Of a stretch of DNA of 13,219 nucleotides, positions 1-13,219 are shown one piece after another. The notes below the pieces were generated by a model that saw only the letters and a program-made list of their open reading frames with translations, had not been told where the DNA came from and did no database searches. The translations under genes and the position numbers were made by a program. This DNA is from an uncultured Oscillospiraceae bacterium (GTDB taxonomy: Bacteria; Bacillota_A; Clostridia; Oscillospirales; Oscillospiraceae), in assembly GCA_947631215.1 (NCBI GenBank), contig CANRKN010000053.1:1-13219 (forward strand), written 5' to 3'. Numbering within the stretch: position 1 is the first letter of the stretch; each line of letters opens with the position of its first letter.

Positions 1-30
1 GTATCTCACTCCTTCCCCTCATTCTAGCAC

Positions 31-67
31 AAAAGATGGTAGGCACTTTCGTGTCTACCATCTTTTT
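31..67. terminator. Strong bidirectional intrinsic terminator
   Basis: Positions 31-46 pair with 51-66 to give a 16-bp stem with one G-T pair and a TTTC loop. The stem is flanked by A residues on the left and a T run (63-67) on the right, so it can work in both directions. It lies about 110 bp beyond the stop codon of the leftward DUF3800 gene and would end that transcript. It could also end a rightward gene outside the window. The same kind of hairpin stands beside the repeat clusters near 9041 and 12577. Confidence 0.8.
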
Positions 68-80
68 ACCACGTCAGGGA

Positions 81-159
81 TTTTACACGGCTGCACCAAT
101 TTTCTGTTAAGCTCATCAAATTTACACGCTTGCACCAATTTTGAGATAACCGTGTAAAA
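81..159. repeat. Repeat cluster 1: two 39-bp units with inverted ends
   Basis: The unit TTTACACG-(G/C)(C/T)TGCACCAATTTT occurs at 82 and again at 121, exactly 39 bp later. The cluster starts with TTTTACACGG (81-90) and ends with its inverse CCGTGTAAAA (150-159), so the whole block has 10-bp inverted ends. It lies between the stop of the DUF3800 gene (180) and the hairpin at 31-67. The same words recur at 8782-8860, 9097-9170 and 12635-12665. CACGTCAGG just before it (71-79) matches the text preceding the clusters at 9041 and 12577. Its function is unknown. Confidence 0.8.
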
Positions 160-179
160 CGATGATATTAGCGTCCTAA

Positions 180-860
180 CTACATCTTTTTCTTCTCCAG
201 CGTCCGTAGATAGTCCTTACGGAAGGCCCGAACGCTGCCGAAAAACTCCATCTCCGACTTGGTGAACGACGCGCTCTCGGCCTTTTCCGCCAGCAGCTCC
301 ATCGTACAGATCAGGTCGACAGACTGAAACAGCTTGTAGTCAACGGGCCGCACCTTGCGAAACTCCACATGGGTATACAGCGTGTTGAAGACCGACGTGA
401 TGATTTTCGTCAGCTCGATCTGCCCGTTATCATAGTAGACAATCACCCTGTCAAAGCTGTTCCAATATGCCTCATGCTGGCGCAGCGTCTCTGCGATCTT
501 TTTGGAAAGCTGCGCCGTCATAGAGATCACGTCGGGGCAATCCCGTTTCCTGACCTTGATGCAGGCGTATCGAATGTCCAGCCTGCGGGTGAAATGGAAG
601 AGCGCCTTGAACAGCCGCTTGCGATCCTCCGTCAAATCGTTTGCATAGACTGCCTCCCGCCGGATGAGCGGCCCGGTATGTACGGCGTGCTGCGGGTAGC
701 CCAGGTTTTGCAAGCGTTCATTGAAGCGGGCGATGTCCCCAGAGATGTCGGCTGCCTGATCGTGGAGCACCATGGAGACGATGTAGTATGGCGAGTGGGC
801 CTCATAGGGGCCAAAATCGCCCGACTCGTCGATGAATACGCTCAGCACTTTCTCTGGCAT
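180..860 (-). CDS. DUF3800 domain protein
   Basis: The protein has 226 residues from the ATG at 860. That start is preferred over a TTG 15 bases upstream because GAGAGGA sits six bases before it. The N-terminus carries the DUF3800 signature FIDESGDFG (residues 9-17), with acidic residues D11, E12 and D15. Further acidic motifs are YYDNGQ (D144) and QSVDL (D182). The family is predicted to have an RNase H-like fold and is common in phages and defence islands. Its biochemical role is not established, and nuclease activity is an inference. The gene has its own consensus promoter and a folded leader, and lies downstream of the restriction operon in the same direction. A second copy, 90% identical over the visible 183 bp, starts leaving the window at the right edge. 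Confidence 0.85.
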   Translation of the reverse strand: MPEKVLSVFIDESGDFGPYEAHSPYYIVSMVLHDQAADISGDIARFNERLQNLGYPQHAVHTGPLIRREAVYANDLTEDRKRLFKALFHFTRRLDIRYACIKVRKRDCPDVISMTAQLSKKIAETLRQHEAYWNSFDRVIVYYDNGQIELTKIITSVFNTLYTHVEFRKVRPVDYKLFQSVDLICTMELLAEKAESASFTKSEMEFFGSVRAFRKDYLRTLEKKKM

Positions 861-889
861 GGTGCGTCCTCTCAATCTCTATCTAAAGA

Positions 890-970
890 AAGTGGCGGGG
901 AATTTCCCCGCCATTCGGTGGACCAGGGTCTTTCGACCAGCCCAGTCAGTGTGCTCCACTGACTTATTCT
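890..970 (-). ncRNA. Structured 5' leader of the DUF3800 gene, candidate small RNA
   Basis: Read leftward from the predicted transcription start near 970, three perfect hairpins follow in close order. The first is AGTCAGTG/CACTGACT (944-964, five-base loop). The second is GGTC-GAAA-GACC (927-938, a GNRA tetraloop). The third is GC-rich, TGGCGGGGA/TCCCCGCCA (893-913, three-base loop), and is followed by ACTTTCTTT. The third hairpin could act as a weak terminator or attenuator, giving an RNA of roughly 90 bases with read-through into the DUF3800 gene. It matches no riboswitch I recognise. Whether the RNA is an independent product is an inference. Confidence 0.5.
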
Positions 971-976
971 ATGTGT

Positions 977-1005
977 ATTATAACGGATGATTCGCAGTTT
1001 GTCAA
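977..1005 (-). promoter_or_regulatory. Consensus sigma-70/sigma-A promoter for DUF3800
   Basis: On the minus strand TTGACA (1005-1000) and TATAAT (982-977) are separated by exactly 17 bp. This is a perfect match to the housekeeping promoter. Transcription should begin near 970, so the first hairpin of the leader lies at the very 5' end of the RNA. The promoter lies only about 30 bp beyond the stop codon of the small gene at 1034-1285, so read-through from the hsd operon is also possible. Confidence 0.85.
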
Positions 1006-1033
1006 ACATGTTTACGCTGTAATAAATTGAATA

Positions 1034-1285
1034 TCAGCCGCGTCCGCTCATCATCTTCAACACTTCCTTTAATGCCGTTGAGCCCGCAGCGTTGGATTCA
1101 ACTTCCTGCAGATGTGCTTGCTCACATGCATCAACCGCGGAGAATACTTGCTCTCGTTCTTCGCCGGATAGCAATGCTGCCTTTTTCCGCATAGCATCGC
1201 ACTGTTGACGGATTGAGCTTTTCTGTCCTTGCTTCAGTGCTTCTTTGCTCAAATCAAAGAGAAAATCGCCATAATCATAACCCAT
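1034..1285 (-). CDS. Small helical protein of unknown function, last gene of the hsd operon
   Basis: The protein has 83 residues from the ATG at 1285 (MGYDYGDFLFDL). This start has a GGAG about 11 bases upstream. The frame is open further, back to a TTG at 1330 just after the hsdM stop, but no ribosome binding site precedes that codon. The protein is charged, looks mostly helical and has no membrane segment or known motif. Its position directly behind hsdM, with no terminator between, suggests cotranscription with the restriction genes. A role in that system is only a guess from position. Confidence 0.6.
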   Translation of the reverse strand: MGYDYGDFLFDLSKEALKQGQKSSIRQQCDAMRKKAALLSGEEREQVFSAVDACEQAHLQEVESNAAGSTALKEVLKMMSGRG

Positions 1286-1334
1286 GATAGATAACGCTCC
1301 GTTCCGATTGTTTTCTTTGTCGTTTCGCAATACA

Positions 1335-2816
1335 TTATTGCTTCAACTGGCCCATGAGCTCCTGGAAGCTCTCCAGAGCGCTTTGCAGGTTCTCAATGAT
1401 GTCGCCGGCCAGCTCGTCCGGCGCGGGGAGGTTATCCAGATCGGCCAAGGCCTTATCCTTGATCCAGAAGATGTCCAGGCTGGTCTTGTCCCGCGCCATA
1501 ATCTCATCCACGCTGAATCTGCGCCAGCGGCCGTCGGGGTTATCAGTTGACCAGGTCTCTTTCCGCTCGTGGCGGTTCTCCGGATGATAACAGGCGATGA
1601 AGTCCTCCAAGTCACGGTCGGTCATGGGGTTCTGCTTCAGCGTGAAATGGACGTTGGTGCGGAAGTCGTATATCCACACTTCCTTGGTCTGCCGCTCCGG
1701 GCTGGTGGGCCGTTCGTCGAAGAAAATCACGTTGGCCTTGACGCCGGGCTTGTAGAAGATGCCCGTGGGCAGGCGAAGGATGGTGTGCAGGTCGGTGGTC
1801 TCCAGCAGCTTTTTGCGTACGACCTCGCCCGCGCCGCCCTCAAAAAGCACATTGTCCGGCACCACCACGGCGGCCTTGCCGGTGGACTTCAGGATGGTGT
1901 TGATGTGCTGGACGAAGTTGAGCTGCTTATTGGAGCTGGTAGTCCAAAAATCAGAGCGGTTGTAGACCAAGTCTTCCTCCTCCTGCTCGCCCTCCTCGTT
2001 GGTGAAGGTGAGAGAGGACTTCTTGCCGAAGGGCGGGTTGGTCATGACATAGTCCACCCGGTAGCCGGGGTCGGACAACAGAGAGTCGCCCTGGGCCACG
2101 GGGACATTGCCATAGATGTCGCCGATATTGTGCAGATAGAGATTCATCAGGCACAGCTTGAACGTGGCGGCCACCAGCTCGTTCCCATAGAAGGTCTCGT
2201 TTTTCAAAAACTCCTTCTGTTCCCGATCCAGCTGATAGTTCTCTGCGATGAATTCCTGCGCCGCCAAGAAGAAGCCGCCGCTGCCGCAGCAGGGATCGGC
2301 GATGGTCTTCATTGGTTCCGGGCGCAGGCATTTGACCATGGCGCGGATGAGGGGCCGGGGCGTGAAGTACTGCCCGGCGCCGCTTTTCACGTCCTCGGCG
2401 TTTTTCTGTAGCAGGCCCTCGTAGATCTCGCCCTTCACGTCGGTGGACATAGAGACCCACTTCTCCTTGTCGATCATCTGCACGATGCGGTAGAGGATGG
2501 CCACGTTGCTGATCTTGTTGATGGCGCCCTTGAATATCTTGCCCAGGATGCCGCCCTGCTCGCCCAGGGTCTCCAGCGTGGTCTTATACTGGCTCTCCAG
2601 CGCCGCGCCGGTCAGGGTGTTCATGTCCGCCCAGGTGCATCCCGCCGGGATGCCGCTGTCCTTGTTGTAGGGCGGCTTGGAATACTCGTCTGCCATCTTG
2701 AGGAAGATAAGGTAGGTGAGCTGTTCCAGATAGTCGCCGTAGGAAATGCCGTCATCCCGCAGCGGGTTACACATGCCCCACACGCGGGAGATGATGGTGG
2801 AGGTTTGTTCAGGCAT
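1335..2816 (-). CDS. hsdM: Type I restriction-modification system, DNA methyltransferase subunit HsdM
   Basis: The protein has 493 residues, the usual HsdM length. It starts with the helical N-terminal domain of the family, followed by GQYFTPRP (residues 148-155). The S-adenosylmethionine-binding motif is DPCCGSGGF (174-182) and the catalytic adenine-methylase motif is NPPF (260-263). With HsdS it would form the M2S methylase that puts N6-methyladenine on the host copy of the target site; HsdR joins for cleavage. The ATG at 2816 is preceded by AAGGAGA at good distance. The gene is GC-rich (44 of 60 bases at 2341-2400), in contrast with the AT-rich genes just upstream in the operon. Confidence 0.96.
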   Translation of the reverse strand: MPEQTSTIISRVWGMCNPLRDDGISYGDYLEQLTYLIFLKMADEYSKPPYNKDSGIPAGCTWADMNTLTGAALESQYKTTLETLGEQGGILGKIFKGAINKISNVAILYRIVQMIDKEKWVSMSTDVKGEIYEGLLQKNAEDVKSGAGQYFTPRPLIRAMVKCLRPEPMKTIADPCCGSGGFFLAAQEFIAENYQLDREQKEFLKNETFYGNELVAATFKLCLMNLYLHNIGDIYGNVPVAQGDSLLSDPGYRVDYVMTNPPFGKKSSLTFTNEEGEQEEEDLVYNRSDFWTTSSNKQLNFVQHINTILKSTGKAAVVVPDNVLFEGGAGEVVRKKLLETTDLHTILRLPTGIFYKPGVKANVIFFDERPTSPERQTKEVWIYDFRTNVHFTLKQNPMTDRDLEDFIACYHPENRHERKETWSTDNPDGRWRRFSVDEIMARDKTSLDIFWIKDKALADLDNLPAPDELAGDIIENLQSALESFQELMGQLKQ

Positions 2817-2852
2817 GGGTGGTCTCCTTGTCGATAGAGGATGAGAATAGTA

Positions 2853-3452
2853 TCATTCGTCCAGGAGCAATTCTGGTGAATGCGTTGTGCAATTCAATAC
2901 AAGAAATTCTTCACTCTCTGCTCTTTTCACAATATCCAGTTCAACTACCTGTTTATATGTGTGTTCTAACAAGTCTCTGTAGTATATGTAAAGCTTAACT
3001 TCTGGAAGATTGTCGATAGTATGCGTCGCTGACAGAATTATGTTCATGGTTTGCATACTGCCAGACTGCAACGCTGTGGTGCGGAATTTAACACCCATAT
3101 TTATTATCGCGCAGCCTGATGAATCACAGTCTATATCTTTTGCTGTCCCTCTACCAATATTCCGAAGTTCACAGCCAGAAATACACCAATCCTTGAAAAC
3201 GCCGTCACCAGGATCTTCATCGAGAATATCAAGTTCAAGATTCGTATCCGGAAATGCAACCCTATCCGTTATCTTCAGTTGCAAATATGGCATTATATCA
3301 AGACGTTTGGTTTCCTCATATTGCCGTTTTGATTCTTCAACCTGCTCTTTTGTTGCTTTTGCGGATTTGCTGTTTTGTATTAAAATCAAAATGGTTACTA
3401 AAGCATAGATAAACGTAATTCCAACCATCAGCCAGTCAGTGATTGTAGGCAT
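2853..3452 (-). CDS. Membrane-anchored protein of unknown function between hsdS and hsdM
   Basis: The protein has 199 residues. A hydrophobic segment (about residues 7-26) is followed by a charged helical stretch, probably a short coiled coil (about 27-52). The remaining 150 residues look like a beta-rich soluble domain with several cysteines. The start codon overlaps the hsdS stop codon as TAATG, which points to translational coupling with hsdS. The gene is AT-rich like hsdS and unlike hsdM. No family is recognised. The topology, one N-terminal membrane segment with a soluble tail, is the same as for the 266-residue protein on the other side of hsdS, though I see no clear sequence similarity between the two. 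Confidence 0.75.
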   Translation of the reverse strand: MPTITDWLMVGITFIYALVTILILIQNSKSAKATKEQVEESKRQYEETKRLDIMPYLQLKITDRVAFPDTNLELDILDEDPGDGVFKDWCISGCELRNIGRGTAKDIDCDSSGCAIINMGVKFRTTALQSGSMQTMNIILSATHTIDNLPEVKLYIYYRDLLEHTYKQVVELDIVKRAESEEFLVLNCTTHSPELLLDE

Positions 3453-4615
3453 TAAGTCAATTCTCCCTCAAATGCTTTCTTCAAAATGCTCTGCCGCAGG
3501 GCCTCTGCCTGTTGCAATGCGGCGTCTATGGTTTGCTCGATACTGTCACAGACAGACATACGGGATTCAATTGCTTGAATTATTACCAACTGATCCTGAT
3601 AAGGAAATACAGGAATGTGGAGATTTGATATCTCAGAAGAATTTATGTTATGAACTCCGCTGGTTGATTTAGCTTTGTTTTCGATATAGATACGGGCAGA
3701 GTGAGCCTGCAAATACCACAGCAAAAATCGCGGGACAAGGTCATGGTGGTTTTTGATTCGTAATCGCATCAAGTAGCCAGCGAATGTCCCATTGACATCA
3801 ACGTCATTTACTATGGCTGCACGACCAACTAGAGAAGCACTGCCATTAGACCGAATTATCAAAATGTCATCCTCGCAGAGAGTGATTCCGTCCAGTTCTT
3901 GCTTCGCAAATAAGGCAGATTTTATGTCATTGTGATCAATGCGACCGACTTTATAGTTTATATTTGGTATACGATAGACAGGAATTGCTTTATCTGAGAC
4001 AGTATAGTCACATTTTTTTGATGTACCATATCGTGGCTTTTCAATAAATTCTGCCAGCGGTTGACAGGAAGTTGCTTTTGAATCAGACAGTTTGCCCTCA
4101 AACGCCTCTTTTAGCACCGCCTGCCGGTACACAGCCAGTTGCTGTTTTGCCTTTTTCAGCGTCTCCACGCCGCTGTCAAGTTGGGAGAACAGTTCTTCGG
4201 TTTTGGCAACGATGCGCTTTTGTTCTGGGAAAGATGGTATGTTCAGTTCTTTCTTTTCAAGGTGCTGATAGTGACGCGCATAACCTTTGTTCTCTAACCT
4301 TAAAACAAGGTATTGCGTTGCATAATACAAATACTTTGGAAACACTGACTGTTTCGGCTGGAGGATTTTAATGCCATCTGCCCCTGCTCCAAACGAGAAA
4401 TTCACATACTTGACAGCACGAGTATGATCCCCAAAGACTATAACAGGAAGCTCACATGTAATGCGCTTGCTGATATCGTCAGTATATCCCCCTATCAGTT
4501 CTTTTCCTTGGTCAACAACGGCCAATGCTCCGTGTTTCAAATAATTCTTTTGCTTAGTTTTCTTATTTGGAGAAATAGAGATTTTTTGAACTAAATCTCT
4601 ATACATAGAATCCAT
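3452..4615 (-). CDS. hsdS: Type I restriction-modification system, specificity subunit HsdS
   Basis: The protein has 387 residues from the ATG at 4615, which has GGAGGA eight bases upstream. An in-frame TTG at 4630 overlaps that ribosome binding site and is less likely. Two target-recognition domains (about residues 1-125 and 185-340) each end in a conserved helical spacer. The spacers close with the repeated words FEGKL (172-176) and FEGELT (C-terminus). This two-domain build means recognition of a split DNA sequence, with one half per domain and the helices setting the gap. The gene is AT-rich (22 of 60 bases G or C at 3901-3960), typical of an exchangeable specificity gene. The actual target cannot be read from the sequence. 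Confidence 0.93.
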   Translation of the reverse strand: MDSMYRDLVQKISISPNKKTKQKNYLKHGALAVVDQGKELIGGYTDDISKRITCELPVIVFGDHTRAVKYVNFSFGAGADGIKILQPKQSVFPKYLYYATQYLVLRLENKGYARHYQHLEKKELNIPSFPEQKRIVAKTEELFSQLDSGVETLKKAKQQLAVYRQAVLKEAFEGKLSDSKATSCQPLAEFIEKPRYGTSKKCDYTVSDKAIPVYRIPNINYKVGRIDHNDIKSALFAKQELDGITLCEDDILIIRSNGSASLVGRAAIVNDVDVNGTFAGYLMRLRIKNHHDLVPRFLLWYLQAHSARIYIENKAKSTSGVHNINSSEISNLHIPVFPYQDQLVIIQAIESRMSVCDSIEQTIDAALQQAEALRQSILKKAFEGELT

Positions 4616-4641
4616 AACCGATTCCTCCAAAAAATCTGAAT

Positions 4642-5442
4642 TCAGTCCTTCTTTTTTGAGATTTCAACTATAGCATTTTGGAAATTCCATCGTACGTTGT
4701 ATTCTTTCTTAAGAGGTGCAACTAAAGATTCATCAATATTATCATGCAGTGCTTTATAACTACTTTCATCGACCATCATGGAATAGCAAAACGTAGCAGT
4801 ACTCTTGTTAAACTTTGTAATAATAGCAATGTCATATGTTCCAATATCCCAAAAATAGTCTTTTTCAATTAGACTTAATGCGTGTTTATATTGTTCGCTG
4901 GCTCTGTACCTTGCGACTGCTTCAGCATAATCCGAACAGAACAATCTTAGTTGTTGTGCATTTTCAAATAATGATTCTGTATTAAGTTGAAACGTCTTTC
5001 CAAAAGTGTTCATCATATCAGAGAACTCGGTAAACGCACATGCAATGCTATTCTCTTCTATCCGGAATGGATGTACTTTTTCGGTCGTTTGAACAATGTT
5101 TCCTACGACATTCTGATTGATAGGAGAATAAAAATAAGACCATGAAAGATTGAGCTTTCTATCATCACGCTTGCGCGTAATGGATATGTCTATACCTTTT
5201 ATTGCGACAGGCTGATTCTTTGCCTCATATACACCATCGATTCTGAGGTAAGGACCACTTTGATTAAAAAAGAGGTTTGCAGTGCCTGTCGGCATAAACT
5301 CCAGCTTTGCCCTTCTAAATATTTTCTTCCAAGTAAATTTAATAACAGGAGTTAGAAGTGCAATTATAGAAATGATAAGTGCAAGCAATTCGTAGATTGA
5401 CATTTTTGCTGAAAAATCAATAGCTGCTTTTAAGTGTTCCAT
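4642..5442 (-). CDS. Membrane-anchored protein of unknown function between hsdR and hsdS
   Basis: The protein has 266 residues. A hydrophobic segment (about residues 16-38) is followed by a basic stretch (KKIFRRAK) that would lie in the cytoplasm. The rest is a soluble domain without recognised motifs and with a lysine-rich end. The gene begins 12 bp after the hsdR stop. Its AAAGGA ribosome binding site overlaps that stop codon, so it is tightly coupled to hsdR. Base composition is low in GC (23 of 60 at 4741-4800) compared with hsdR (39 of 60 at 5521-5580). It is followed by hsdS after 26 bp. It could be an accessory defence protein carried with the specificity gene. Confidence 0.75.
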   Translation of the reverse strand: MEHLKAAIDFSAKMSIYELLALIISIIALLTPVIKFTWKKIFRRAKLEFMPTGTANLFFNQSGPYLRIDGVYEAKNQPVAIKGIDISITRKRDDRKLNLSWSYFYSPINQNVVGNIVQTTEKVHPFRIEENSIACAFTEFSDMMNTFGKTFQLNTESLFENAQQLRLFCSDYAEAVARYRASEQYKHALSLIEKDYFWDIGTYDIAIITKFNKSTATFCYSMMVDESSYKALHDNIDESLVAPLKKEYNVRWNFQNAIVEISKKKD

Positions 5443-5454
5443 TTTGTTGTTCCT

Positions 5455-8202
5455 TTATGCCACCAGTTCAATGTTCATTTCCCGCAGTACCGACTCATAC
5501 TCCGGGCCAAAGACGTCATAGAACCGGCCAAGGCCGCCCTTGCGGTCGAAGGGACTCAGATCCAGATCGCTGGGCTCGATGCTCAGGGACGCGGCGATGT
5601 GGTCCTTGATGAGCCGCAGCCAGTCCATCTGCTCCTCGGTGAAGTGTACCGCGCCGGTATTTTTCTGGAACGTCCAGCGCATGAAGTTATAATTCACCTT
5701 GTCGGCAAAAGGCGCCAGCTCGTCGGCATAGCCCATCTCAAAGCGGACAAGGCTGACCAGATCGGCCAGCTGCGCCGCCGTGCCGCGCTTGACCTTGTCT
5801 GGCTTCCTGATGGCATAGCAGTCCCAGAGCCGCTCCACGGTGACGCCCTGGGCTTTCAGCTTCTCATACAACGCCTTTAGCTTTTCGATGGCCATGGGGC
5901 GGTCCTTATATCGCTGATCATAGATGATCCGCAGGGCGGTCAGCTCGTCCTGGTTCTCCTCAATGAACGCCCTGAAGGTCTGGATAGTGCGGTCGGCGTC
6001 GGACTGCTTGTCCGTATCGAAACCGACATACAGCACTGTATCCAAGTTCACGCTGTCGATGATCTGCTCGTGGCTGCGGCGCACGGCCTCGATATAGTTG
6101 CGGACATCCGGGTCATAGAAAGGCTTGACCGCCTCTTTGACCAGTTCCTTTTGGGCGGCGTCCATCTTTTTCTGCTCTTCCTCGGTGGGCTCACGGTCCT
6201 CGTCCAGCACGATTTCGGCACGAGCCGCGATAATGTCTCCATCAAAGGCGTCCAGAAGCCCTTGAGCCAGACTGCCTGCGGGCATGCCCACTGTCGCCTC
6301 AAACTCCTTGCGCTCCTTGGGGGACAGCTGGGCGTTCAGGCGTATCACCCGGTTGGCCAGAGAGGTGAGGGTGTCTTCGTCCTTCGCTCCCATGGCCACA
6401 TTGAGCATCAGCTCCCGCATGCTGACGGTGGGCTTGCGCTCCAGGGGGCGGGTGTCTGTCTTCTTCGATTTTGTCACGCCCACCGCGTCCACGATGACGA
6501 AATGGTCCTTGTTTCCCGTAGCAGAGTGGGACACCTTCTGCAGGTCATCTTTGCTCATCACGCGAGTGCCGCGGCCCTTCATCTGCTCGAAATAGTTCTT
6601 GCTGCGCACGTCCCGCATGAAGATGAGGCACTCGATGGGCTTTACGTCTACGCCGGTGGCGATCATGTCCACGGTGACGGCGATACGAGGGTTATAACCA
6701 TTTCGGAAGTTGCGCAGGATGTCCTCCGGCTTCTCCGCCTGACAGGTGATCTTCTGGCAGAACTCGTTGCCCTCGCCGAATTCCTCCCGGACGATTTGAA
6801 CGATGTCGTCCGCATGGCTGTCGGTCTTGGCAAAGATCAATGTCTTGGGCACTTCCTGGCGGTGGGGAAACAGGGCGGTGAACAGGTTGTCCCGGAACGC
6901 ACGGATGACCGTGCGTATCTGGCTGGGATTGACGATGTCCCGGTCCAGCTGGGTCTGCACGTAGTCCACATCATCGTCCAGCTGCTTCCACCGCTTGGCG
7001 CGGGTGAGGCGGTTGCGGCATTCGATGACCTGCTTCATGATGTGGCCTCCGTGCTTGGTCACGTCGGTCTCGATGAGGAAGATATCCTCGCCCACGTTCA
7101 CGCCGTCGATGATGGCCTGCTCCCGGGAGTACTCGCTGACCATATTCTGATTGAAATAGGCGATGGTGCGTTTGTCCGGTGTGGCGGTCAGGCCGATGAT
7201 GAAAGCATCAAAGTACTCCAGCACCTGGCTCCAGACGTTGTAGATGGAGCGGTGGCACTCGTCCACGATGATGCAGTCGAAAAATTCCGGCGGGTACTTC
7301 TCGTTATATACGACCTCCTTCACCGGCTGACTGCTGGCCCCGGTCATCTCGAACATGGACTCGTCCTCAGCAGATTCGTCGATTTCCTCGCCCTTGAGGA
7401 TGGAGTACATTCGCTGGATGGTGCTGATGCAGATCTGCACGTCAGGGATAAAGGCACTTTTCAGTCGGCACACACCGTACAGTTCTGGGAAAGAGCGATT
7501 ATCGTCGTTTGGTGGGTAGGCCAGAAACTCCCGCTCTGCCTGTTCGCCCAAGCTCCTGGTATCTACCAAAAACAGGATACGTTTCATGCCGCCATATTTC
7601 AGCAGACGATAAGCCGCCGTGATGGCGGTGAATGTCTTGCCGGCGCCCGTGGCCATCTGTACCAGCGCCTTGGGTCGGTTGTCAGCAAAGGACTGGTCAA
7701 GGTTTCGGATGGCCGTGACTTGGCAATCCCGGAAGCCCCGCGTATCCAGCGGCGGGAGGCGTTTCAGGTTGTTGCGGACGGTATCCTTCTGCGCCAGCAG
7801 TGCCCGAAGCGTCTCGGGACGGTGAAAGGAATATACCATTCGGGAGCGGTGTTTCACGTCGTCATAGTCCGTGAACTGAGTCAGCACACCTGTTGCCTCA
7901 TAGGCAAAACGGATGCGGTACTCCGCCTTGACATATTTGAATGTGCTGTTGGCATAGCGGTCCGACTGTGGTTCAACAGTTGTGATGTTCTCACCCATTT
8001 CATCCCGTTTTGCCTCTGCGACGCCCACAGGTAGCCCATCCACGAAAAGAGCATAGTCCACCGGCCCGGTACTGGTGGGGAACTCCCGCACGGCGACGCC
8101 AAGCGATGCCATGGGATTAAGTTGTTTAAAGTCCTGCAAGACCCAGCCCGACTGGACCAGCCGGGCGTCTATGAGCTGTCTCGCTTTTTCTTCGGGCGAC
8201 AT
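5455..8202 (-). CDS. hsdR: Type I restriction-modification system, restriction subunit HsdR
   Basis: The protein has 915 residues from the ATG at 8202, which has GGAGGA six bases upstream; a GTG 21 bases earlier is less likely. An N-terminal nuclease domain shows the PD-(D/E)xK pattern PVDYALF...VAEAK (about residues 47-65). A superfamily 2 helicase motor follows: Walker A ATGAGKT (184-190), DECH (314-317), GLTATP (337-342), motif V ATGVDV (515-520) and motif VI QMKGRGTR (540-547). The C-terminal part is of the EcoEI type. All key residues are present and the frame is intact, so it should translocate DNA with ATP and cleave unmodified DNA together with HsdM and HsdS. It is the first gene of the leftward hsd operon. 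Confidence 0.96.
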   Translation of the reverse strand: MSPEEKARQLIDARLVQSGWVLQDFKQLNPMASLGVAVREFPTSTGPVDYALFVDGLPVGVAEAKRDEMGENITTVEPQSDRYANSTFKYVKAEYRIRFAYEATGVLTQFTDYDDVKHRSRMVYSFHRPETLRALLAQKDTVRNNLKRLPPLDTRGFRDCQVTAIRNLDQSFADNRPKALVQMATGAGKTFTAITAAYRLLKYGGMKRILFLVDTRSLGEQAEREFLAYPPNDDNRSFPELYGVCRLKSAFIPDVQICISTIQRMYSILKGEEIDESAEDESMFEMTGASSQPVKEVVYNEKYPPEFFDCIIVDECHRSIYNVWSQVLEYFDAFIIGLTATPDKRTIAYFNQNMVSEYSREQAIIDGVNVGEDIFLIETDVTKHGGHIMKQVIECRNRLTRAKRWKQLDDDVDYVQTQLDRDIVNPSQIRTVIRAFRDNLFTALFPHRQEVPKTLIFAKTDSHADDIVQIVREEFGEGNEFCQKITCQAEKPEDILRNFRNGYNPRIAVTVDMIATGVDVKPIECLIFMRDVRSKNYFEQMKGRGTRVMSKDDLQKVSHSATGNKDHFVIVDAVGVTKSKKTDTRPLERKPTVSMRELMLNVAMGAKDEDTLTSLANRVIRLNAQLSPKERKEFEATVGMPAGSLAQGLLDAFDGDIIAARAEIVLDEDREPTEEEQKKMDAAQKELVKEAVKPFYDPDVRNYIEAVRRSHEQIIDSVNLDTVLYVGFDTDKQSDADRTIQTFRAFIEENQDELTALRIIYDQRYKDRPMAIEKLKALYEKLKAQGVTVERLWDCYAIRKPDKVKRGTAAQLADLVSLVRFEMGYADELAPFADKVNYNFMRWTFQKNTGAVHFTEEQMDWLRLIKDHIAASLSIEPSDLDLSPFDRKGGLGRFYDVFGPEYESVLREMNIELVA

Positions 8203-8250
8203 GATCCGTCCTCCTTCCAGCACAGAGCCAGACCGATTTCCGCCGAGACC

Positions 8251-8270
8251 CTATAAAAATCCATTTATAG
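8251..8270. promoter_or_regulatory. Inverted repeat at the hsdR transcription start, candidate operator
   Basis: CTATAAA (8251-8257) and TTTATAG (8264-8270) form a perfect 7-bp inverted repeat around six bases. It overlaps the -10 element and the predicted start of the hsdR transcript, so a repressor bound here could control the operon. No regulator gene is seen nearby. It could equally be a chance AT-rich palindrome. Confidence 0.35.
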
Positions 8271-8297
8271 GATACCACAAAAGCAGACGTTTTCCAA
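8269..8297 (-). promoter_or_regulatory. Probable promoter of the hsd operon
   Basis: On the minus strand TTGGAA (8297-8292) and TATCCT (8274-8269) are 17 bp apart. A TG one base upstream of the -10 gives an extended -10 element. It is weaker than the DUF3800 promoter but well placed, about 70 bp ahead of the hsdR start. Confidence 0.5.
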
Positions 8298-8300
8298 GTG

Positions 8301-8780
8301 GCTTCGACAACACAAAACGTGAGCCGCGGATCGCTCCGGCGGCCTGTGAAGGGCAGACATTACATATTATTGATGCGCGGCAATCAAGCTTTTGTCTCAG
8401 TTCCAGACCCATCCACTCGCCCATCCAATCGCTCGGAGTTTCAGAAGCCTGTAATGGCGGTGTTTGGCGGGTATTTCGGCTGTAAGGGAGGCGACTGTAT
8501 CCCTGTTTCGGGATACCTTATCGCAAACGTGTGGCGGGCCCGGGCTACTTCAAATTATGCCCTGGCTGCTGGGTCCACGGAGGATACGGCTCTCTCCCTG
8601 GTGCGCTATACCGTGCCAAGAATGCGTCCCGGCCCTGGAGGGACCATGGATATCAACCCGGCCCGCCTGCGGGCTCTGTGGGCCCAACGTGGCCGCCTCC
8701 AGGCAAGGCTCCTGCTGCCTGGGGGGTAACCAACCAAGACGAGCAGTGCATTCGTCGCTATGGTGGGCTATGGTATCCCC
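8301..8780. other. About 480 bp without a convincing gene, GC-rich and fold-prone
   Basis: Several rightward frames are open at once here (8298-8729, 8464-8982, 8531-8962). None has a good ribosome binding site or a recognisable protein; the openness reflects GC-rich text with few stop codons. The stretch holds hairpins GTATCCC/GGGATAC (8497-8516), GCCCGC-CT-GCGGGC near 8663 and CCTCCAGGCA/TGCCTGGGGG (8696-8725). It may be decayed coding sequence, an insertion remnant or a structured RNA. I cannot decide which. Confidence 0.4.
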
Positions 8781-8781
8781 G

Positions 8782-8860
8782 TTGCACCAATTATTCGTTA
8801 AGCCGTGTAAAACTGGTGCACTGCACCGCTTTTTTGCCAAGCCGTGTAAAATTGGTGCAA
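8782..8860. repeat. Repeat cluster 2: two 39-bp units
   Basis: TGCACC occurs at 8783 and 8822 and GCCGTGTAAAA at 8802 and 8841, so the period is 39 bp as in cluster 1. Each unit is also closed by an inverse TGGTGCA (8814-8820) or GGTGCA (8854-8859), so each can fold on itself. A more degenerate unit (GTGGTGCATTTT, then CCCGTGAAACGG) follows at about 8907-8933. No gene stops directly beside it; the hsdR start lies some 580 bp to the left and the toxin stop 330 bp to the right. Confidence 0.75.
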
Positions 8861-8960
8861 AGGGCTTTTTTCGCCAAAATGGGCACAAAGCAGCATGGGC
8901 GAAAAGTGGTGCATTTTGGACCCGTGAAACGGCTCTGCAACGGGCAAGATCAGTACAAAT

Positions 8961-8999
8961 AATGAACGACACCCCCGAATAACGGGGGTGTCGTTCATT
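8961..8999. terminator. Very strong 17-bp hairpin
   Basis: Positions 8961-8977 pair perfectly with 8983-8999 around the five-base loop AATAA. The stem has a GC-rich top (ACCCCCG/CGGGGGT) and an AT-rich base. A smaller hairpin GATTGTA/TACAATC (9001-9019) follows directly. It lies downstream of the leftward toxin gene and repeat cluster 3, so it may end that transcript. On the minus strand the T-rich tail is weak (AATTATTTG-like), so it could also be a structural part of the repeat element. Confidence 0.65.
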
Positions 9000-9040
9000 T
9001 GATTGTACGTCATACAATCTCCAAAACTGACGTGCAAACG

Positions 9041-9170
9041 TGCCCTAGCACGTCACGTATGGAGGTTGGACCCCCAAGCCGTGCAAATCGTCACGGCTGC
9101 ACCAATTTTCAGTCCGCTGCACCATTTTTTGCAGAACTGCACCAATTCTCAGTGGAGCCGTGTGAAACGG
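9041..9170. repeat. Repeat cluster 3: three 20-bp tandem units behind a conserved 55-bp lead
   Basis: CTGCACCA starts at 9097, 9117 and 9137, exactly 20 bp apart, followed by GCCGTGTGAAACGG (9157-9170). The lead 9041-9096 (GCACGTCA, TGGAGGTTG, TGCAAAT and so on) aligns with 12577-12634 with only one single-base gap and roughly three quarters identical bases. The cluster ends 17 bp before the stop codon of the leftward toxin gene. The 20-bp spacing resembles protein-binding iterons, but no replication gene is present. Confidence 0.75.
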
Positions 9171-9186
9171 GGAGGGTAAGGCGCCG

Positions 9187-9510
9187 TCACAGAGTTTCTA
9201 TTATCCTCTTCTGATCTCGCCGAGCATAGTAGACGGCGAGGATATTGACACGCTTCCTGGCGTCATCCACCAGATAATAGATGTTAAAGTTCCTGGTCCG
9301 TGTTTTGCGGATACCGCGGTCTCCCGCCGGGTCATCCTCTATTGCCGGGTAGCGGGACGGCATGGCCGAAAGAGAGCAGATCTCTTCCTCCAGCGCGTCC
9401 AATGTGTTCATACCGGCCAGAGGCGATTGCAGCGTCACGGAGATGTACCGCACGATCTCCGACAACTGCTCCTCCGCCTGCCGGGTCATCTCAACGGCAT
9501 AGCTCTCCAT
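9187..9510 (-). CDS. RelE/ParE family toxin
   Basis: The protein has 107 residues, the usual length of the family. It has the N-terminal helices (MTRQAEEQLSEIVRYI), the RYP segment in the middle and the conserved C-terminal strands (TRNFNIYYLVDD, VNILAVYYARRD). RelE members cut mRNA on the ribosome, while ParE members poison gyrase. The sequence alone does not settle which applies here. The ATG follows the antitoxin stop codon without a gap (TAA then ATG), and its ribosome binding site GGGAG lies inside the antitoxin gene. The two are clearly one operon. Confidence 0.9.
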   Translation of the reverse strand: MESYAVEMTRQAEEQLSEIVRYISVTLQSPLAGMNTLDALEEEICSLSAMPSRYPAIEDDPAGDRGIRKTRTRNFNIYYLVDDARKRVNILAVYYARRDQKRIIETL

Positions 9511-9813
9511 TTACGAAAGCTCCCGACGCAGATCGGTAAACACCTCTTTGGCGGGCCTTGTGCGCCCAGCCTGCACATCATCCATTCCCTTCTGGAGCAT
9601 AGCGGAAAATTCCTCGTCGGTCATCTCGTCCCGCGCCTTCGGTCCGCGGGGCAGCGTCAGCGGGAAAGGAATGCTCTTGGTGAGGATAATCTGGTTGTAG
9701 AGCAGGTTGATTACAGTGGACGCGGAGATGCCCAGCTTCTGCATGACCTCCTCGGCCTCGCGCTTCGTCTCCGGCTCCACCCGGACCAGCACATTTGCGG
9801 TCTTATTCGCCAT
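9511..9813 (-). CDS. RelB/DinJ family antitoxin
   Basis: The protein has 100 residues from the ATG at 9813, with AAAGGTGG upstream. A second ATG in frame four codons earlier is less well placed. The N-terminal ribbon-helix-helix domain (NVLVRVEPETKREAEEVMQKLG, then ISASTVINLLYNQII) would bind the operator as a dimer. The C-terminal part would wrap around the toxin. Such antitoxins repress their own operon together with the toxin. Confidence 0.9.
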   Translation of the reverse strand: MANKTANVLVRVEPETKREAEEVMQKLGISASTVINLLYNQIILTKSIPFPLTLPRGPKARDEMTDEEFSAMLQKGMDDVQAGRTRPAKEVFTDLRRELS

Positions 9814-9836
9814 GGTATGCACCACCTTTCAAAGCG

Positions 9837-9873
9837 ATTATACCATATTGTATGACGTTTCGCAATACAGTAT
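9837..9873 (-). promoter_or_regulatory. Promoter and operator of the toxin-antitoxin operon
   Basis: On the minus strand TTGCGA (9865-9860) and TATAAT (9842-9837) are 17 bp apart. ATAC...GTAT half-sites overlap them: ATACTGTAT near 9866-9874 and ATACAATATGGTAT just before the -10. They fit binding of the ribbon-helix-helix antitoxin and hence autorepression. Confidence 0.65.
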
Positions 9874-9927
9874 CACTTTGACCAGCCTGTATTTTTAAAA
9901 GACGTACTGCGTAATAGGAAGTAAACA

Positions 9928-10108
9928 TTGGGTCGTAAGAAAACGCTCGTAAACGACACCAACATCCTGTAGCACGAGATCGAAAAGCTCGCCCGGCGCT
10001 TCCTGCCGGACATCCTCGCGTTCTATGGGAGCGAGGAGGGCCAGCGGGAGTTCGGCGTGGAACGCCCAGCGGGAGATGGAAAGATACCTCCAAGATACCA
10101 AGACATAA
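9928..10108 (+). pseudogene. Decayed small rightward gene of about 60 codons
   Basis: Starting from a TTG at 9928 with AGGAAG six bases upstream, the frame reads LGRKKTLVNDTNIL, then a TAG at 9970-9972, then HEIEKLARRFLPDILAFYGS and EEGQREF. After REF the sense passes to another frame, which reads AWNAQREMERYLQDTKT and stops with TAA at 10106-10108. The gene therefore has one nonsense change and one frameshift of a base near 10053. The style (HEIEKLARRFLPDI, EEGQREF) resembles small helical proteins of clostridial mobile elements, from memory only. It faces the toxin-antitoxin promoter and is followed by a hairpin. Confidence 0.55.
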
Positions 10109-10115
10109 TAACGCC

Positions 10116-10145
10116 AGCGGCGGCAGTCAGGTGACTGCCGCCGCT
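10116..10145. terminator. Perfect GC-rich hairpin between the ATPase gene and the pseudogene
   Basis: Positions 10116-10128 pair with 10133-10145 (AGCGGCGGCAGTC) around a four-base loop. It lies 40 bp beyond the stop of the leftward ATPase gene and directly behind the rightward pseudogene, so it can end transcripts from both sides. On the minus strand a weak T tract (GTTATTATG) follows. Confidence 0.7.
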
Positions 10146-10184
10146 ATTCGGCGCAGATTGCTTTGCGGATCGTGTCAATAACTT

Positions 10185-11528
10185 CTAGTCAGTTGTAATC
10201 TGTCCCTGCTTCAATTCGTTGATTACTTGTTCAAAATCAATCGGCCGAACCCGGGGTACACCCCCATAATCGTTGTTCAAGTATTTATTCCTAACATTAT
10301 TATTAAAGTACGTGCGCTTTTCATAGTCAGATATACACTGGACGCTCTTAGAACCATCATCCCTTTCTCTTAAAATATAGGTTGATTCTCGAGCAAAATC
10401 CGATTGCATAAGCATTGTGTTGTGTGATGTTATTATAACCTGCCCAGCAATATATGGACAGACCTCTTGAATGATTTTTTGAAATAACAAATCATGGATC
10501 CCGGAATCCGCTTCATCTATAACTACTGTTTCCCCGAGACATGCACTTAAGAGATAGCAGAGAACGCGTAGAACTTGGTGGTTTCCTGTAGATTCAATAG
10601 AAAACGGAATACTGCGATAAGTACCTGCTACTTTCTTTTCAAAATAGAGTTGATAGTTCACAAGTCTGCCGCTGTATCCGCGTCGGTAGTAAACTTTTCT
10701 GACTTCTGAATTGATCGATGAAAAAAACTGAGAAAAAACTCTTTCTGCTAAATCCAATTGGTACTCATCTTCTTGCTGAAGGTTGCCTTGGTCAGGTTCT
10801 TCAAACACTTCATAACGAGACCGAAGCCTTTCCCAGCGCCTAGAACCAATGCCGACGTAACATGACAGCATCCAGACCTCTGCAAAAAAGTCTTCAAAAT
10901 TAGGCGATAGGTTATTTCCTACATACGACGAGGATTTATCAATCAGCTCGTGTTGGAATATTGCAAGCATCGAATGCTTGCCCCAAAAGCGTTTTGCGAC
11001 CGCCTTGATATCAGAGAGCAAGTCTTTGTCTTCGACTATTCCGGAGTTGATAGAGATCCCCTCTTTGGTGCAATTGAAATACACGCCTCTCCTTTTGTTC
11101 AGAAGATACTCTAACCGTTCACGGACGATCTCTGAATCACCGAATTCTATTTGGTATGATCCGTGCTTTCCATATATTGAAAACTCGTATTCTACAGTGA
11201 TCGGATCTTCATTTCCAATCATTCGATAATCACGGATGATCGCCGGTATATCCCGGAGGCCAGACAGAAGTTGCTGTCGAACTGCTTTTTCTATGTTTTC
11301 GTCATTGAAGAATTGTTTATGGTTAAGAAGTTCCTCATAAGTGTCTCTAATGTCCATGGTTGCCATCAATTCGTTGAGCAATACAAAGGCAGACATTAGA
11401 TTTGACTTTCCGGCCCCATTTTCTCCGAAAACAGTGACCAAGTGCTTTGGGGCATGGTCACGCCCGGTCAAGTCAAATACTATTTCGCCGAAAGAACGGA
11501 GGTTCTTAAGCCTTACTTTTGTAAACAA
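10185..11528 (-). CDS. Solitary AAA family ATPase, OLD-like (AAA_15/AAA_21 type)
   Basis: The protein has about 447 residues from a TTG at 11528, preceded by AGGGGTG at good distance. A GTG at 11537 or a TTG at 11576 is possible, but the family usually begins near KVRLKNLRSFGE. It has Walker A GENGAGKS (residues 35-42), a signature-like ESTGNHQ (312-318), Walker B VVIDEAD (335-341) and a switch histidine TSHN (367-370). This is the arrangement of ABC/SMC-type ATPases of OLD proteins. No TOPRIM nuclease domain follows, and no partner nuclease gene adjoins it. Relatives act in phage defence, for example as the ATPase half of two-gene systems. The gene is AT-rich (20 of 60 bases at 10681-10740). 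Confidence 0.85.
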   Translation of the reverse strand: MFTKVRLKNLRSFGEIVFDLTGRDHAPKHLVTVFGENGAGKSNLMSAFVLLNELMATMDIRDTYEELLNHKQFFNDENIEKAVRQQLLSGLRDIPAIIRDYRMIGNEDPITVEYEFSIYGKHGSYQIEFGDSEIVRERLEYLLNKRRGVYFNCTKEGISINSGIVEDKDLLSDIKAVAKRFWGKHSMLAIFQHELIDKSSSYVGNNLSPNFEDFFAEVWMLSCYVGIGSRRWERLRSRYEVFEEPDQGNLQQEDEYQLDLAERVFSQFFSSINSEVRKVYYRRGYSGRLVNYQLYFEKKVAGTYRSIPFSIESTGNHQVLRVLCYLLSACLGETVVIDEADSGIHDLLFQKIIQEVCPYIAGQVIITSHNTMLMQSDFARESTYILRERDDGSKSVQCISDYEKRTYFNNNVRNKYLNNDYGGVPRVRPIDFEQVINELKQGQITTD

Positions 11529-11581
11529 TCTTATCACCCCTACCCGTAGTATCTCATACCGCGAGCCGAAAAGCAAGCGTT

Positions 11582-11610
11582 ATTATTGCATGGATAAAAA
11601 TTTTTATCAA
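11582..11610 (-). promoter_or_regulatory. Promoter of the ATPase gene with a 16-bp palindromic operator
   Basis: On the minus strand TTGATA (11610-11605) and AATAAT (11587-11582) are 17 bp apart. The perfect palindrome GATAAAAATTTTTATC (11593-11608) covers the -35 element and spacer. A half-copy GATAAAAATC lies at 11641-11650, just ahead of the rightward promoter. This points to a shared regulator of the two divergent units, or to a chance AT-rich palindrome. Confidence 0.5.
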
Positions 11611-11653
11611 AATTCGATAGAAATCCTCTCTGAAAAGAGCGATAAAAATCTTA

Positions 11654-11682
11654 TTGACAGGCACAAGATGTTGTGTTATGTT
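11654..11682 (+). promoter_or_regulatory. Promoter of the rightward YjzC-like unit
   Basis: TTGACA (11654-11659) and TATGTT (11677-11682) are 17 bp apart, so transcription should begin near 11690. The promoter stands back to back with that of the ATPase gene. Confidence 0.65.
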
Positions 11683-11689
11683 ATGTGGT

Positions 11690-11924
11690 GAAGTCAGCGG
11701 ACTGCAATATGGGCTGCTGATCACTCGCGGGTGAAGGAATACGAAAAGACGCCCGTGGTCAGGCGTCTCCTCGCGCCGGCAAAAGCAACCGGCTGGGTAT
11801 TCAACTAAGTGGCATTAGAAGTTTACCACGGCCACGACCGATTTGCAATATATTTTTGCTGGCAGAAAGGAAAAGTAAGCGAGACTTCGTGCCTTTCATC
11901 AACCAAATGAAAGGAGGTTCCAAC
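11690..11924 (+). ncRNA. Long structured 5' leader, candidate regulatory RNA
   Basis: About 235 bases separate the promoter from the first good start codon. Four hairpins follow in order: TCAGCGG/CTGCTGA (11694-11720, one G-T pair), TCAC/GTGA (11721-11734), AGACGCC/GGCGTCT (11747-11768) and GCCGG/CCGGC (11775-11793). The rest to 11924 has no coding sense I trust. Such a long folded leader could be a riboswitch-like element or a free RNA. I do not recognise a known class. Confidence 0.4.
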
Positions 11925-12095
11925 ATGAGAACCACAGTAAAAACCGGGCAAAAAGCCCCTGTTTCGGGTCAGTATAAACCTGCTGGAAGCAAGACCGAAG
12001 TGACCTTTGTCGAGGGAAAACGCGTTCCCCCCACCCCCACTGGTGCGACAAAGTTCACACTGGTCGATCAGACCAAGCACAAGGGAGGCTCGTAA
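11925..12095 (+). CDS. YjzC-like small protein
   Basis: The protein has 56 residues. The start at 11925 has an almost perfect AAAGGAGG site; the frame is open further upstream to 11856 but without such a site. The pattern TGQKAPVSGQY, EVTFVEGKRVPPTP, TLVDQTKHK matches the small YjzC-type proteins of Firmicutes as I remember them; their function is unknown. The stop codon overlaps the next start as TAATG, so the two genes are translationally coupled. Confidence 0.7.
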   Translation: MRTTVKTGQKAPVSGQYKPAGSKTEVTFVEGKRVPPTPTGATKFTLVDQTKHKGGS

Positions 12096-12355
12096 TGAGG
12101 TTCCAAGGTGCTGTTGTGCGGGAGCAGGGCGTGACCTTTGGCATTGTGGTTGTAAAGCCGCATGTGCTGAATAGTCCTTCCTCTCGAGAGGATATGCAGA
12201 GGTTTGGCGTACAGGCGTTTGGTGTTATGCCAATCATCCTCATGGCTCAAAACAGCCGTGGAGTCCCAACATACTGGGGGCGCAGCGATATCGTTCGCTT
12301 TTTGTCCCACACGCCGATGCAGTGTATCCCCTGGAGGCAATATTCTGTTGCATGA
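12095..12355 (+). CDS. Small protein of unknown function coupled to the YjzC-like gene
   Basis: The protein has 86 residues, from the ATG that overlaps the preceding stop, with AAGGGAGG upstream. It has a hydrophobic beta-like N-terminal half (VTFGIVVVKPHVL), then QAFGVMPIILMAQ and a tryptophan-containing C-terminal part (PTYWGRSDIVRFL). It has no clear membrane segment or signal peptide and no known motif. It is followed directly by a terminator. Confidence 0.65.
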   Translation: MRFQGAVVREQGVTFGIVVVKPHVLNSPSSREDMQRFGVQAFGVMPIILMAQNSRGVPTYWGRSDIVRFLSHTPMQCIPWRQYSVA

Positions 12356-12371
12356 GCAACGGGAAAACAAT

Positions 12372-12404
12372 GAGGGCCGCTCATTAGAGTGGCCCTTGTT
12401 TAGT
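12372..12404 (+). terminator. Intrinsic terminator of the YjzC-like operon
   Basis: AGGGCCGCT (12373-12381) pairs with AGTGGCCCT (12388-12396), with one G-T pair and a six-base loop, and is followed by the T-rich TTGTTTAGTTGTT. It starts 17 bp after the second stop codon. Confidence 0.8.
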
Positions 12405-12514
12405 TGTTGGCGTCCATTACTCTTTTTCTTCTTTGCCCCCTTGGCTTCGATGTCGCCCTCTTTCGCACCCCATTCCTAAAATGTGTCGCTTTGTATGGCT
12501 CAAAGTTAAACACA

Positions 12515-12567
12515 AATCCGAACCCATCGCCTACGGGATACGGTCCCACGGGTCTTGGGTTCGGATT
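12515..12567. repeat. Long inverted repeat preceding repeat cluster 4
   Basis: AATCCGAACCCA (12515-12526) is perfectly inverted at 12556-12567. The 29 bases inside hold a smaller GGGA/TCCC hairpin (12535-12547). The element lies ten bases before the cluster at 12577, just as other strong hairpins lie beside clusters 1 and 3. Between the terminator at 12404 and this element I see no gene. Confidence 0.7.
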
Positions 12568-12576
12568 ATGTTGGTT

Positions 12577-12665
12577 TGCCCTTGCACGTCAGGTTTGGAG
12601 GTTGAACCCTCCTACCCATGCAAATTGTCGCGCTTGCACCAATTTTTGAGGTAGCCGTGTAAAAA
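12577..12665. repeat. Repeat cluster 4
   Basis: The lead 12577-12634 (GCACGTCA, TTGGAGGTTGAACCCTCC, TGCAAAT) aligns with 9041-9096. It is followed by a single unit TTGCACCAATTTT (12634-12646) and GCCGTGTAAAAACC (12654-12667). It lies about 60 bp beyond the stop codon of the leftward 80-residue gene. A partial unit TTGCACCGAGATAATC lies at 12714-12729. Confidence 0.75.
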
Positions 12666-13036: not shown

Positions 13037-13219
13037 CTACAGCTTTTTCTTCTCCAGCGTCCGAAGATAGTCTTTCCGAAAGGCCCGGACGCTGCCGAAG
13101 AACTCCAACTCCGATTTGGTGAACGATGCGCTGTCGGCCTTCTCTGCCAGCAGCTCCATCGTGCAGATCAGGTCGGCGGACTGGAACAGCTTGTAATCAA
13201 CGGGCCGCACCTTGCGAAA
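13037..13219 (-). CDS. Second DUF3800 gene, 3' end only
   Basis: The visible 60 C-terminal codons match those of the gene at 180-860 without gaps. By my count 18 of 183 bases differ but only four residues (V/A, E/D and two M/L). Most changes are therefore silent, which suggests both copies are or were under selection as proteins. The rest of the gene, including its DESG motif and any leader, lies beyond the right edge. Confidence 0.85.
   Translation of the reverse strand, partial: FRKVRPVDYKLFQSADLICTMELLAEKADSASFTKSELEFFGSVRAFRKDYLRTLEKKKL

Follow-up and report, generated by a model that had tools for sequence, protein, structure and literature searches.

The ssrA islands of Dehalococcoides (DsiB/DsiA; McMurdie 2011, PMC3146451) are tandem modules at the 3' end of an RNA gene, with serine recombinase genes beside one end and 15 islands that have no integration module. 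Streptococcal integrative and conjugative elements (ICEs) with a serine integrase triplet carry several adjacent recombinase genes at their end together with conjugation genes, and are bounded by direct repeats of 2-8 bp (PMC4701971), and cis-mobilizable elements (CIMEs) have lost their integration and transfer genes, keep both end sites and stack in tandem by accretion (PMC5704250). Here we describe a 13,219-nucleotide stretch of DNA from an uncultured Oscillospiraceae bacterium (contig CANRKN010000053.1; hereafter the window) in which two short words, TGCACCAATTTT and CCGTGTAAAA, recur in four clusters. These clusters are probably the arm regions of two kinds of end, A and B, of integrative elements that are moved by a large serine recombinase at the CCA of tRNA genes. 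The window would then hold stacked members of this family that have no recombinase gene of their own: E1, from cluster 1 to 9040; E2, which starts at 9041 and abuts E1; and E3, which starts at 12577 and runs past the window end. Serine-integrase ICEs, CIMEs and the Dehalococcoides islands make this a kind of system that is already known; the repeated arms and the putative replacement terminator look new.

Each of these systems differs from the elements described here. The Dehalococcoides islands target the transfer-messenger RNA gene, insert in its T-loop and are flanked by 20-bp direct repeats, and subterminal repeated arms are not mentioned in the sections of that paper drawn on here (PMC3146451). 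The streptococcal ICEs disrupt mutT, traG or hsdM, and the portion of the source used names no tRNA gene as a serine-integrase target (PMC4701971). CIMEs and accretion are a general concept, and the site-specific serine-integrase integrative and mobilizable elements treated in the same excerpt disrupt dispensable genes (PMC5704250). The attachment site (attP) of the Listeria A118 integrase is pseudo-palindromic, its 25-bp half-sites flanking a central dinucleotide, but the site as described in the part consulted has no repeated-word arms (PMC3783163). The IS607 family also uses a serine transposase, of which multiple dimers assemble a transposon-end complex, but in the excerpts available it has no terminal inverted repeats (PMC6188088) and minimal target specificity (PMC4058570); the passages seen of PMC6907783 and PMC12884075 likewise name no such arms. 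A literature search yielded no paper that we recognised as describing these elements, which is weak negative evidence. Integron cassette arrays resemble them in that modules are stacked and each gene has a recombination site at its 3' end, but they employ a tyrosine recombinase and a folded attC, unlike the end structure found here, and the half-sites are presumably unlike the attC core.

The words in the window are real and not due to chance, as an earlier note made from the sequence alone had proposed. At up to two mismatches TGCACCAATTTT occurs 12 times against 1.6 expected, a count reached by none of 200 shuffles; CCGTGTAAAA also occurs 12 times, but against 10.0 expected and with 62 of 200 shuffles reaching that number, such that it has no overall enrichment. 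All five exact copies of CCGTGTAAAA (at 81 on the minus strand, 150, 8803, 8842 and 12655) and a single one-mismatch copy at 9158 nonetheless lie within the four clusters. The periods given previously are exact, with TGCACCAATTTT units 39 bp apart in cluster 1 (92 and 131) and cluster 2 (8783 and 8822), and three units spaced by 20 and 20 bp in cluster 3 (9098, 9118 and 9138); cluster 4 has one unit. The same strand orientation that the note assigned to all of the words does not hold, as inverted copies are present in cluster 2 (8809-8820 and 8848-8859, with a third just outside at 8902-8913) and cluster 1 contains an inverted CCGTGTAAAA (81-90). Clusters 3 and 4 also share a longer 5' stretch (9041-9073 and 12577-12609, 88% identity), which is a recombination half-site.

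Searching a genome collection for the two words 8-12 bases apart gave six matches, and three of these are true relatives: L007 and L009, from uncultured Oscillospiraceae of one genus, and L011 from an uncultured Acetatifactor sp. (L008, L010 and L012 were set aside as they have no word cluster). Within the genus of L007, TGCACCAATTTT occurs 43 times in 12 of 35 genomes, and a reversed control word in none. The note had offered, as grounds for giving up its proposal, that the words might belong to the ends of a known insertion sequence or be spread evenly over the genome with no relation to gene modules. They do correspond to mobile-element ends, although no insertion sequence was recognised, and they mark module borders, as the note suspected.

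Two end structures are evident from these relatives. The A end consists, with some variation, of TGCCCTTGCACGTCAG.TTTGGAGATTG, TTTTACACGGC, at least one TGCACCAATTTT word and a closing CCGTGTAAAA; its half-site is ~26 nt and the TGCACCAATTTT words behind it are often 20 bp apart. At the B end, inverted TGCACC/GGTGCA words are accompanied by a hairpin and by the A-type half-site in inverted form. In 19 sequences, and at distances up to 90 bp, neighbouring words on the same strand are 19-20 bp (nine cases), 39-41 bp (eight) or some other distance (eight) apart, and words on opposite strands 13 (six), 26-27 (eight) or another distance (six). This spacing is quantised and fits a bound protein, one of two readings that the earlier note gave for its regularity; the other, a folded RNA, finds weak support at best. 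Next to the B-type arms of L061, L062, L063 and L069 there is another recurrent word, GTCCGGAAAA(C/T)GGGGTACAG or a near variant, which often runs directly into TGCACC and is perhaps an insertion-sequence end.

When A and B half-sites are compared outward from the CA that the tRNA-Glu site defines (below), they agree at 18 of 25 positions at the window joint, 20 in the element at tRNA-Glu, 16 in that at tRNA-Ala, and 21 in one element of genome G320, and eight shifted registers give no more than 8 of 25 in all four end pairs tested. All four pairs are ~50 bp and pseudo-palindromic around a central dinucleotide, as is typical of attP, and share the geometry published for the A118 site (PMC3783163). 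In the window, the B-end half-site of E1 (9015-9040, minus strand; 18 of 25 in register 0 and at most 8 in the other eight) and the central TG (9041-9042) with the A-end half-site of E2 (9041-9068, plus strand) together form a joint, attP-like dyad. An unguided scan for dyads with a 2-bp centre, at all window positions except about 30 at each end, placed 9041 (TG/CA) first with 18 of 25 and the hairpin at 48 second with 17 of 25.

At nine loci the B end starts exactly at the CCA of a tRNA gene called by ARAGORN: Thr(cgt) in G320, G297 and G319, Ser(cga) in G328 and G327, Ala(cgc) in G328, Glu(ttc) in G001, Pro(ggg) in G254, and Ser(gga) in G240. The half-site is plain at the Thr, Ala, Glu and Pro genes and divergent at the Ser loci, where the arms and hairpin identify the end. 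G320 has the order tRNA-Thr, B, A, B, A, and thus two elements in tandem; its second B-like cluster and that of the window, which have no tRNA, are tandem joints. A tRNA-like end adjoins a B-like cluster in L069 where ARAGORN made no call, the clusters of G310 C34, G328 C9, G001 C35 and G002 C12 have no called tRNA gene in their vicinity, and in G319 C72 a tRNA-Ser is about 190 bp from the words with its trailer in between. In G146 (L156 near 7700) the insertion is not at a tRNA but within a different serine recombinase gene, toward its 3' end.

Insertion directly after the CCA is confirmed by empty Thr and Glu sites. In G322 and G323 the CCA of tRNA-Thr is followed directly by a terminator and a similar downstream gene, with no words, and at the syntenic locus G320 has a 9.1-kb B-A/B-A array. 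The G001 element sits after tRNA-Glu, a neighbourhood matched in 30 of 35 genomes, and the five other loci inspected, those with a match running to the query end (G219, G310, G315, G317 and G002), carry no element there. In the last four the trailer directly follows tRNA-Glu; the G219 contig (96% identical) stops ten bases past the CCA, and these ten bases, CGTCGGAGGG, are also those that follow the G001 A end. The empty site reads CAC-CA-CGTCGG, the left joint CAC-CA-TATTATGACG (CAC-CA-TATT) and the right joint AAGACA-CA-CGTCGG. The overlap of the two joints is exactly CA, with no longer target duplication, and this fixes the crossover to the CA.

The tRNA trailers in the genus are alike by eye (L022 from 1032, L037 below 19515 on the minus strand, and L165, L166 and L168 after tRNA-Glu), with a ACGTCGAAAG-like start, a long outer stem, and GAAGA and ATCGGT around an inner hairpin; the common start may belong to the recombinase target. 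The T-arm of tRNA-Thr(cgt) at the occupied locus of G320 is unlike that at the empty loci of G322 and G323 (L034 13026-13101 versus L134 and L135), and in G001 C11, where a trailer follows the tRNA, the T-arm has the form found at occupied loci.

In L021 (Glu), L062 (Thr) and L067 (Ser) a large serine recombinase gene terminates a short way inside the B end, and the three are 61-67% identical. Resolvase, Recombinase and zinc ribbon domains were found in two proteins of L021 and in L062, L067 and L155. In L021 a second recombinase gene (40% identical) precedes the first, and an open reading frame (ORF) of 133 aa beside L062 has, by eye, letters in common with the recombinase C-terminus. Presence of at least three words within 800 bp is seen for five of eight recombinases at ≥60% identity and for none of 23 below (Fisher p 3e-4). 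Among six relatives of the family outside the genus, arms, hairpin and core follow the recombinase gene in three (G254, G240 and G146), with G254 having two exact words and so falling under the three-word cut of that count. Two serine recombinase genes lie side by side in G240, G146 and G278; they are preceded in G240 and G146 by a protein of 172-176 aa, with a weak helix-turn-helix match under the cut-off in G240. Coupling-protein-like genes are near in G240 and G278, and a Replic_Relax gene in G146 and G278. A gene for a 172-173 aa protein, alike by eye, adjoins an end cluster in three genomes (L036 7204-7725; L037 42315-42836, in contig coordinates of G321 C5; and L023 11598-12116), and the L036 copy has a sigma-70 region 4 match under the Pfam cut-off.

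We propose that the circular element is most likely inserted into the chromosome by a large serine recombinase, through a crossover of two bases at the CA of the 3'-terminal CCA. The joined ends of the circle would constitute an attP of ~52 bp, with two 25-bp half-sites, a central CA, and repeated TGCACCAATTTT/CCGTGTAAAA words on each side. After insertion the B end would touch the tRNA and supply a new hairpin terminator, and the A end would touch the displaced tRNA trailer; the hairpin could replace the tRNA terminator because it lies where the terminator was. Further elements would insert at the same place, such that modules stack in one orientation. Apparently autonomous relatives have a single recombinase gene or a pair of them close inside the B end, some with relaxase or coupling-protein genes nearby, and elements that have no recombinase would be mobilised in trans. 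The arms most likely serve as accessory sites to which a protein of the recombination complex binds: their spacing near two helical turns, presence at both ends, and occurrence in elements with and without a recombinase gene suggest a protein aiding synapsis or direction. Higher-order complexes on repeated arm sites are formed by lambda and Tn7 with unrelated enzymes. A broader and more tentative idea, which we regard as possible but would not bet on, is that serine recombinases use repeated arms at both ends for a higher-order complex, and that a helper recombinase collects and releases recombinase-less cargo modules behind tRNA genes, an integron-like cassette system in which each module brings a new tRNA terminator.

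Several observations weigh against this interpretation. No recombinase gene was found in the window or the G320 array among the subset of ORFs whose proteins were scanned, and it is by shared ends only that both seem tied to the recombinase family. Although E1 has both ends, its half-site at cluster 1 is damaged and E2 has no recognisable B end; a CIME would keep both end sites. The eight recombinases at ≥60% identity include L105, which is the query itself, two that prompted the idea (L106 and L107), and L152 with an internal stop; the fragments L109, L120 and L121 (61-78% identity, 0-1 words) were dropped before the count, and the 23 include L126, which the G001 element carries as its second recombinase. 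The remaining three relatives outside the genus (G278, G014 and G242) have no arm cluster, with no word cluster in 60 kb of G278, and no A end was found in about 45 kb beside the G146 end. Solitary A ends without a partner occur in G002, G003, G316, G321 and G001 (C11). In G001 C11 the DNA after the A end nearly duplicates the trailer of a tRNA-Thr that lies 9 kb away, yet this tRNA has no B end, an arrangement for which the scheme does not account. The tRNA target sites have little in common beyond the CCA. The two-base overlap is determined at the Glu site alone, as the trailers of the empty G322/G323 sites differ from that of G320, so the Thr site locates the array and not the overlap. Finally, one A end, in G328, adjoins a tyrosine recombinase gene.

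That last gene (L064 10070-10909) encodes a protein of 279 aa just inside the end, and raises the question of whether integration at tRNA 3' ends is instead the work of a tyrosine recombinase, for which the repeats would be lambda-like arm sites, a feature of these enzymes. Tyrosine integrases typically target tRNA 3' ends according to the part of PMC4701971 used here. However, the recombinase family in question matches 22 of the 35 genomes, with up to 16 matches in one (G328), and arms are present at one of 30 fetched loci, the starting locus itself. Moreover, the two joints of the Glu element have only CA in common and not the longer direct repeat of the target end seen for tyrosine-integrase tRNA islands, and we consider this explanation quite unlikely. 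Movement by a DDE transposase, with the words as multiple end-binding sites, has in its favour the resemblance of the ends to those of IS21- and Tn7-like elements, which have inverted terminal sequences and subterminal repeats. It is nonetheless very improbable, as a target duplication of several bases is absent (CA at Glu, none seen at Thr), insertion is at CCA in nine loci, and no DDE transposase was recognised among 27 scanned proteins, with no systematic search for one.

The ends could also be as described and the arms act on the excised circle as iterons or partition sites and not in recombination. Tandem words spaced by 20 bp are iteron-like, both arms meet on the circle, and relatives carry a gene of the Pfam replication-relaxation family. 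Among the window proteins scanned, however, none was recognised as acting in replication or partition, and we think this reading unlikely. The least probable explanation is that the repeat at the A end acts as a structured RNA or as the terminator of a neighbouring gene. TTTTACACGGC and GCCGTGTAAAA can pair, and RNAalifold predicts 25 pairs, with 84.6% of cells paired against 82.3% in shuffles (10 of 500 reach the observed value) and 31-48% when the alignment is slid; three pairs are changed on both sides, as reached by 23 of 500 shuffles. The 13-bp helix, however, has no two-sided change, the structure was derived from the same five sequences on which it was scored, the position of A ends varies between loci, from behind gene 3' ends to ahead of an operon, and there is no Rfam match at the clusters. 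An ohsC match at 8963-9025 is weak, below the gathering score, and was discarded, and a role of the solitary A ends of G001 and G002 as upstream regulators of oligopeptide-transporter operons was dropped since other A ends follow gene 3' ends.

The window order A (cluster 1), B (cluster 2), A (cluster 3) and A (cluster 4) is that of G320 viewed from the opposite side, and the window would be the far end of a tandem stack. An outer hairpin flanking E1 (31-66, inverted repeat I21) is probably the displaced chromosomal terminator, because the A end precedes the displaced tRNA trailer in G320 and G001 (C8). It is followed on the plus strand by the degenerate A-end half-site of E1 (68-79; CACGTCAGGG), which by comparison with the A ends of relatives is missing its TTTGGAG part, such that E1 may no longer move, and by the arms of cluster 1 (81-159), consisting of an inverted CCGTGTAAAA, two TGCACCAATTTT words 39 bp apart and CCGTGTAAAA. 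The cargo assigned to E1 is on the minus strand and begins with a DUF3800 protein of 231 aa whose gene has its 3' end toward the A end (180-875; Pfam PF12686, 1e-7) and has a DUF3800-XI RNA directly upstream (897-944, minus; Rfam RF02975, 74.4 bits against a gathering score of 37.8). A type I restriction-modification system follows, encoding HsdM (1335-2816; PF02384, 2.4e-70; PADLOC MTase_I, 7.2e-186), HsdS (3452-4630; PF01420; PADLOC Specificity_I) and HsdR (5455-8223; PF04851, PF08463 and PF04313). The B-end arms of E1 in cluster 2 (8783-8913) contain two 38-bp units of the form TGCACC...GGTGCA and the outlying inverted word, and similar DNA is present at B ends of G310 (L070, 77% over 568 bp) and G328 (L065, 80% over 202 bp). 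A perfect 17-bp stem forms the B-end hairpin (8961-8999, inverted repeat I15), whose counterpart in relatives comes after the tRNA.

To the right of the joint, the A-end arms of E2 in cluster 3 (9079-9167, plus strand) include three TGCACC words spaced by 20 bp and CCGTGTGAAA. The genes assigned to E2 are all on the minus strand and code for a ParE-type toxin with its 3' end toward the A end (9187-9510; PF05016, 1.9e-9), a RelB-type antitoxin (9511-9825; PF04221, 7.4e-11), and an AbiL-like AAA ATPase (10185-11576; PF13304, 4.6e-14; PADLOC AbiLi, 2.2e-40). G003 also has parE-like DNA next to an A end, and G328 has short remnants of it. A hairpin read from the sequence (12515-12567) lies outside the A end of E3, whose half-site (12577-12604, plus), recognised by comparison with the A ends of relatives, is followed by cluster 4 (12608-12664, plus) with one TGCACCAATTTT and CCGTGTAAAA. 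The E3 cargo is a second DUF3800 gene (13037-13219, minus), cut at the window end, the DNA of which is 90% identical to 178-362, where both copies are visible; its 60-aa piece alone gives no Pfam match. Elsewhere, a large surface-type protein is a recurrent cargo (L021 12638-15124, G320 C12 44184-46640 and L069 1433-3274); the L021 copy has a Fib_succ_major domain and the others are alike at the N-terminus by eye.

A covariance model of the A end matches six places in 5 of the 35 genomes of the genus and, under stricter filters than that search, 1 of 300 genomes across the family. Plasmid and phage searches with window 8740-9200 gave no match, and six hits of the pattern in viral contigs were judged by context to be chance, four of them being near-identical stretches. 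Word matches in G260, G304, G329 and G310 contig C40 form no cluster and are probably chance too.

Large serine integrases are known as simple enzymes for which two short sites suffice. If the proposed scheme is true, the evenly spaced words at both ends would represent natural serine recombination with accessory sites, and the tRNA gene could survive insertion because the crossover falls at the CCA and a replacement terminator is supplied. The end signatures make further such elements findable, and the arrays hint at the way in which these gut bacteria accumulate defence and toxin-antitoxin modules.

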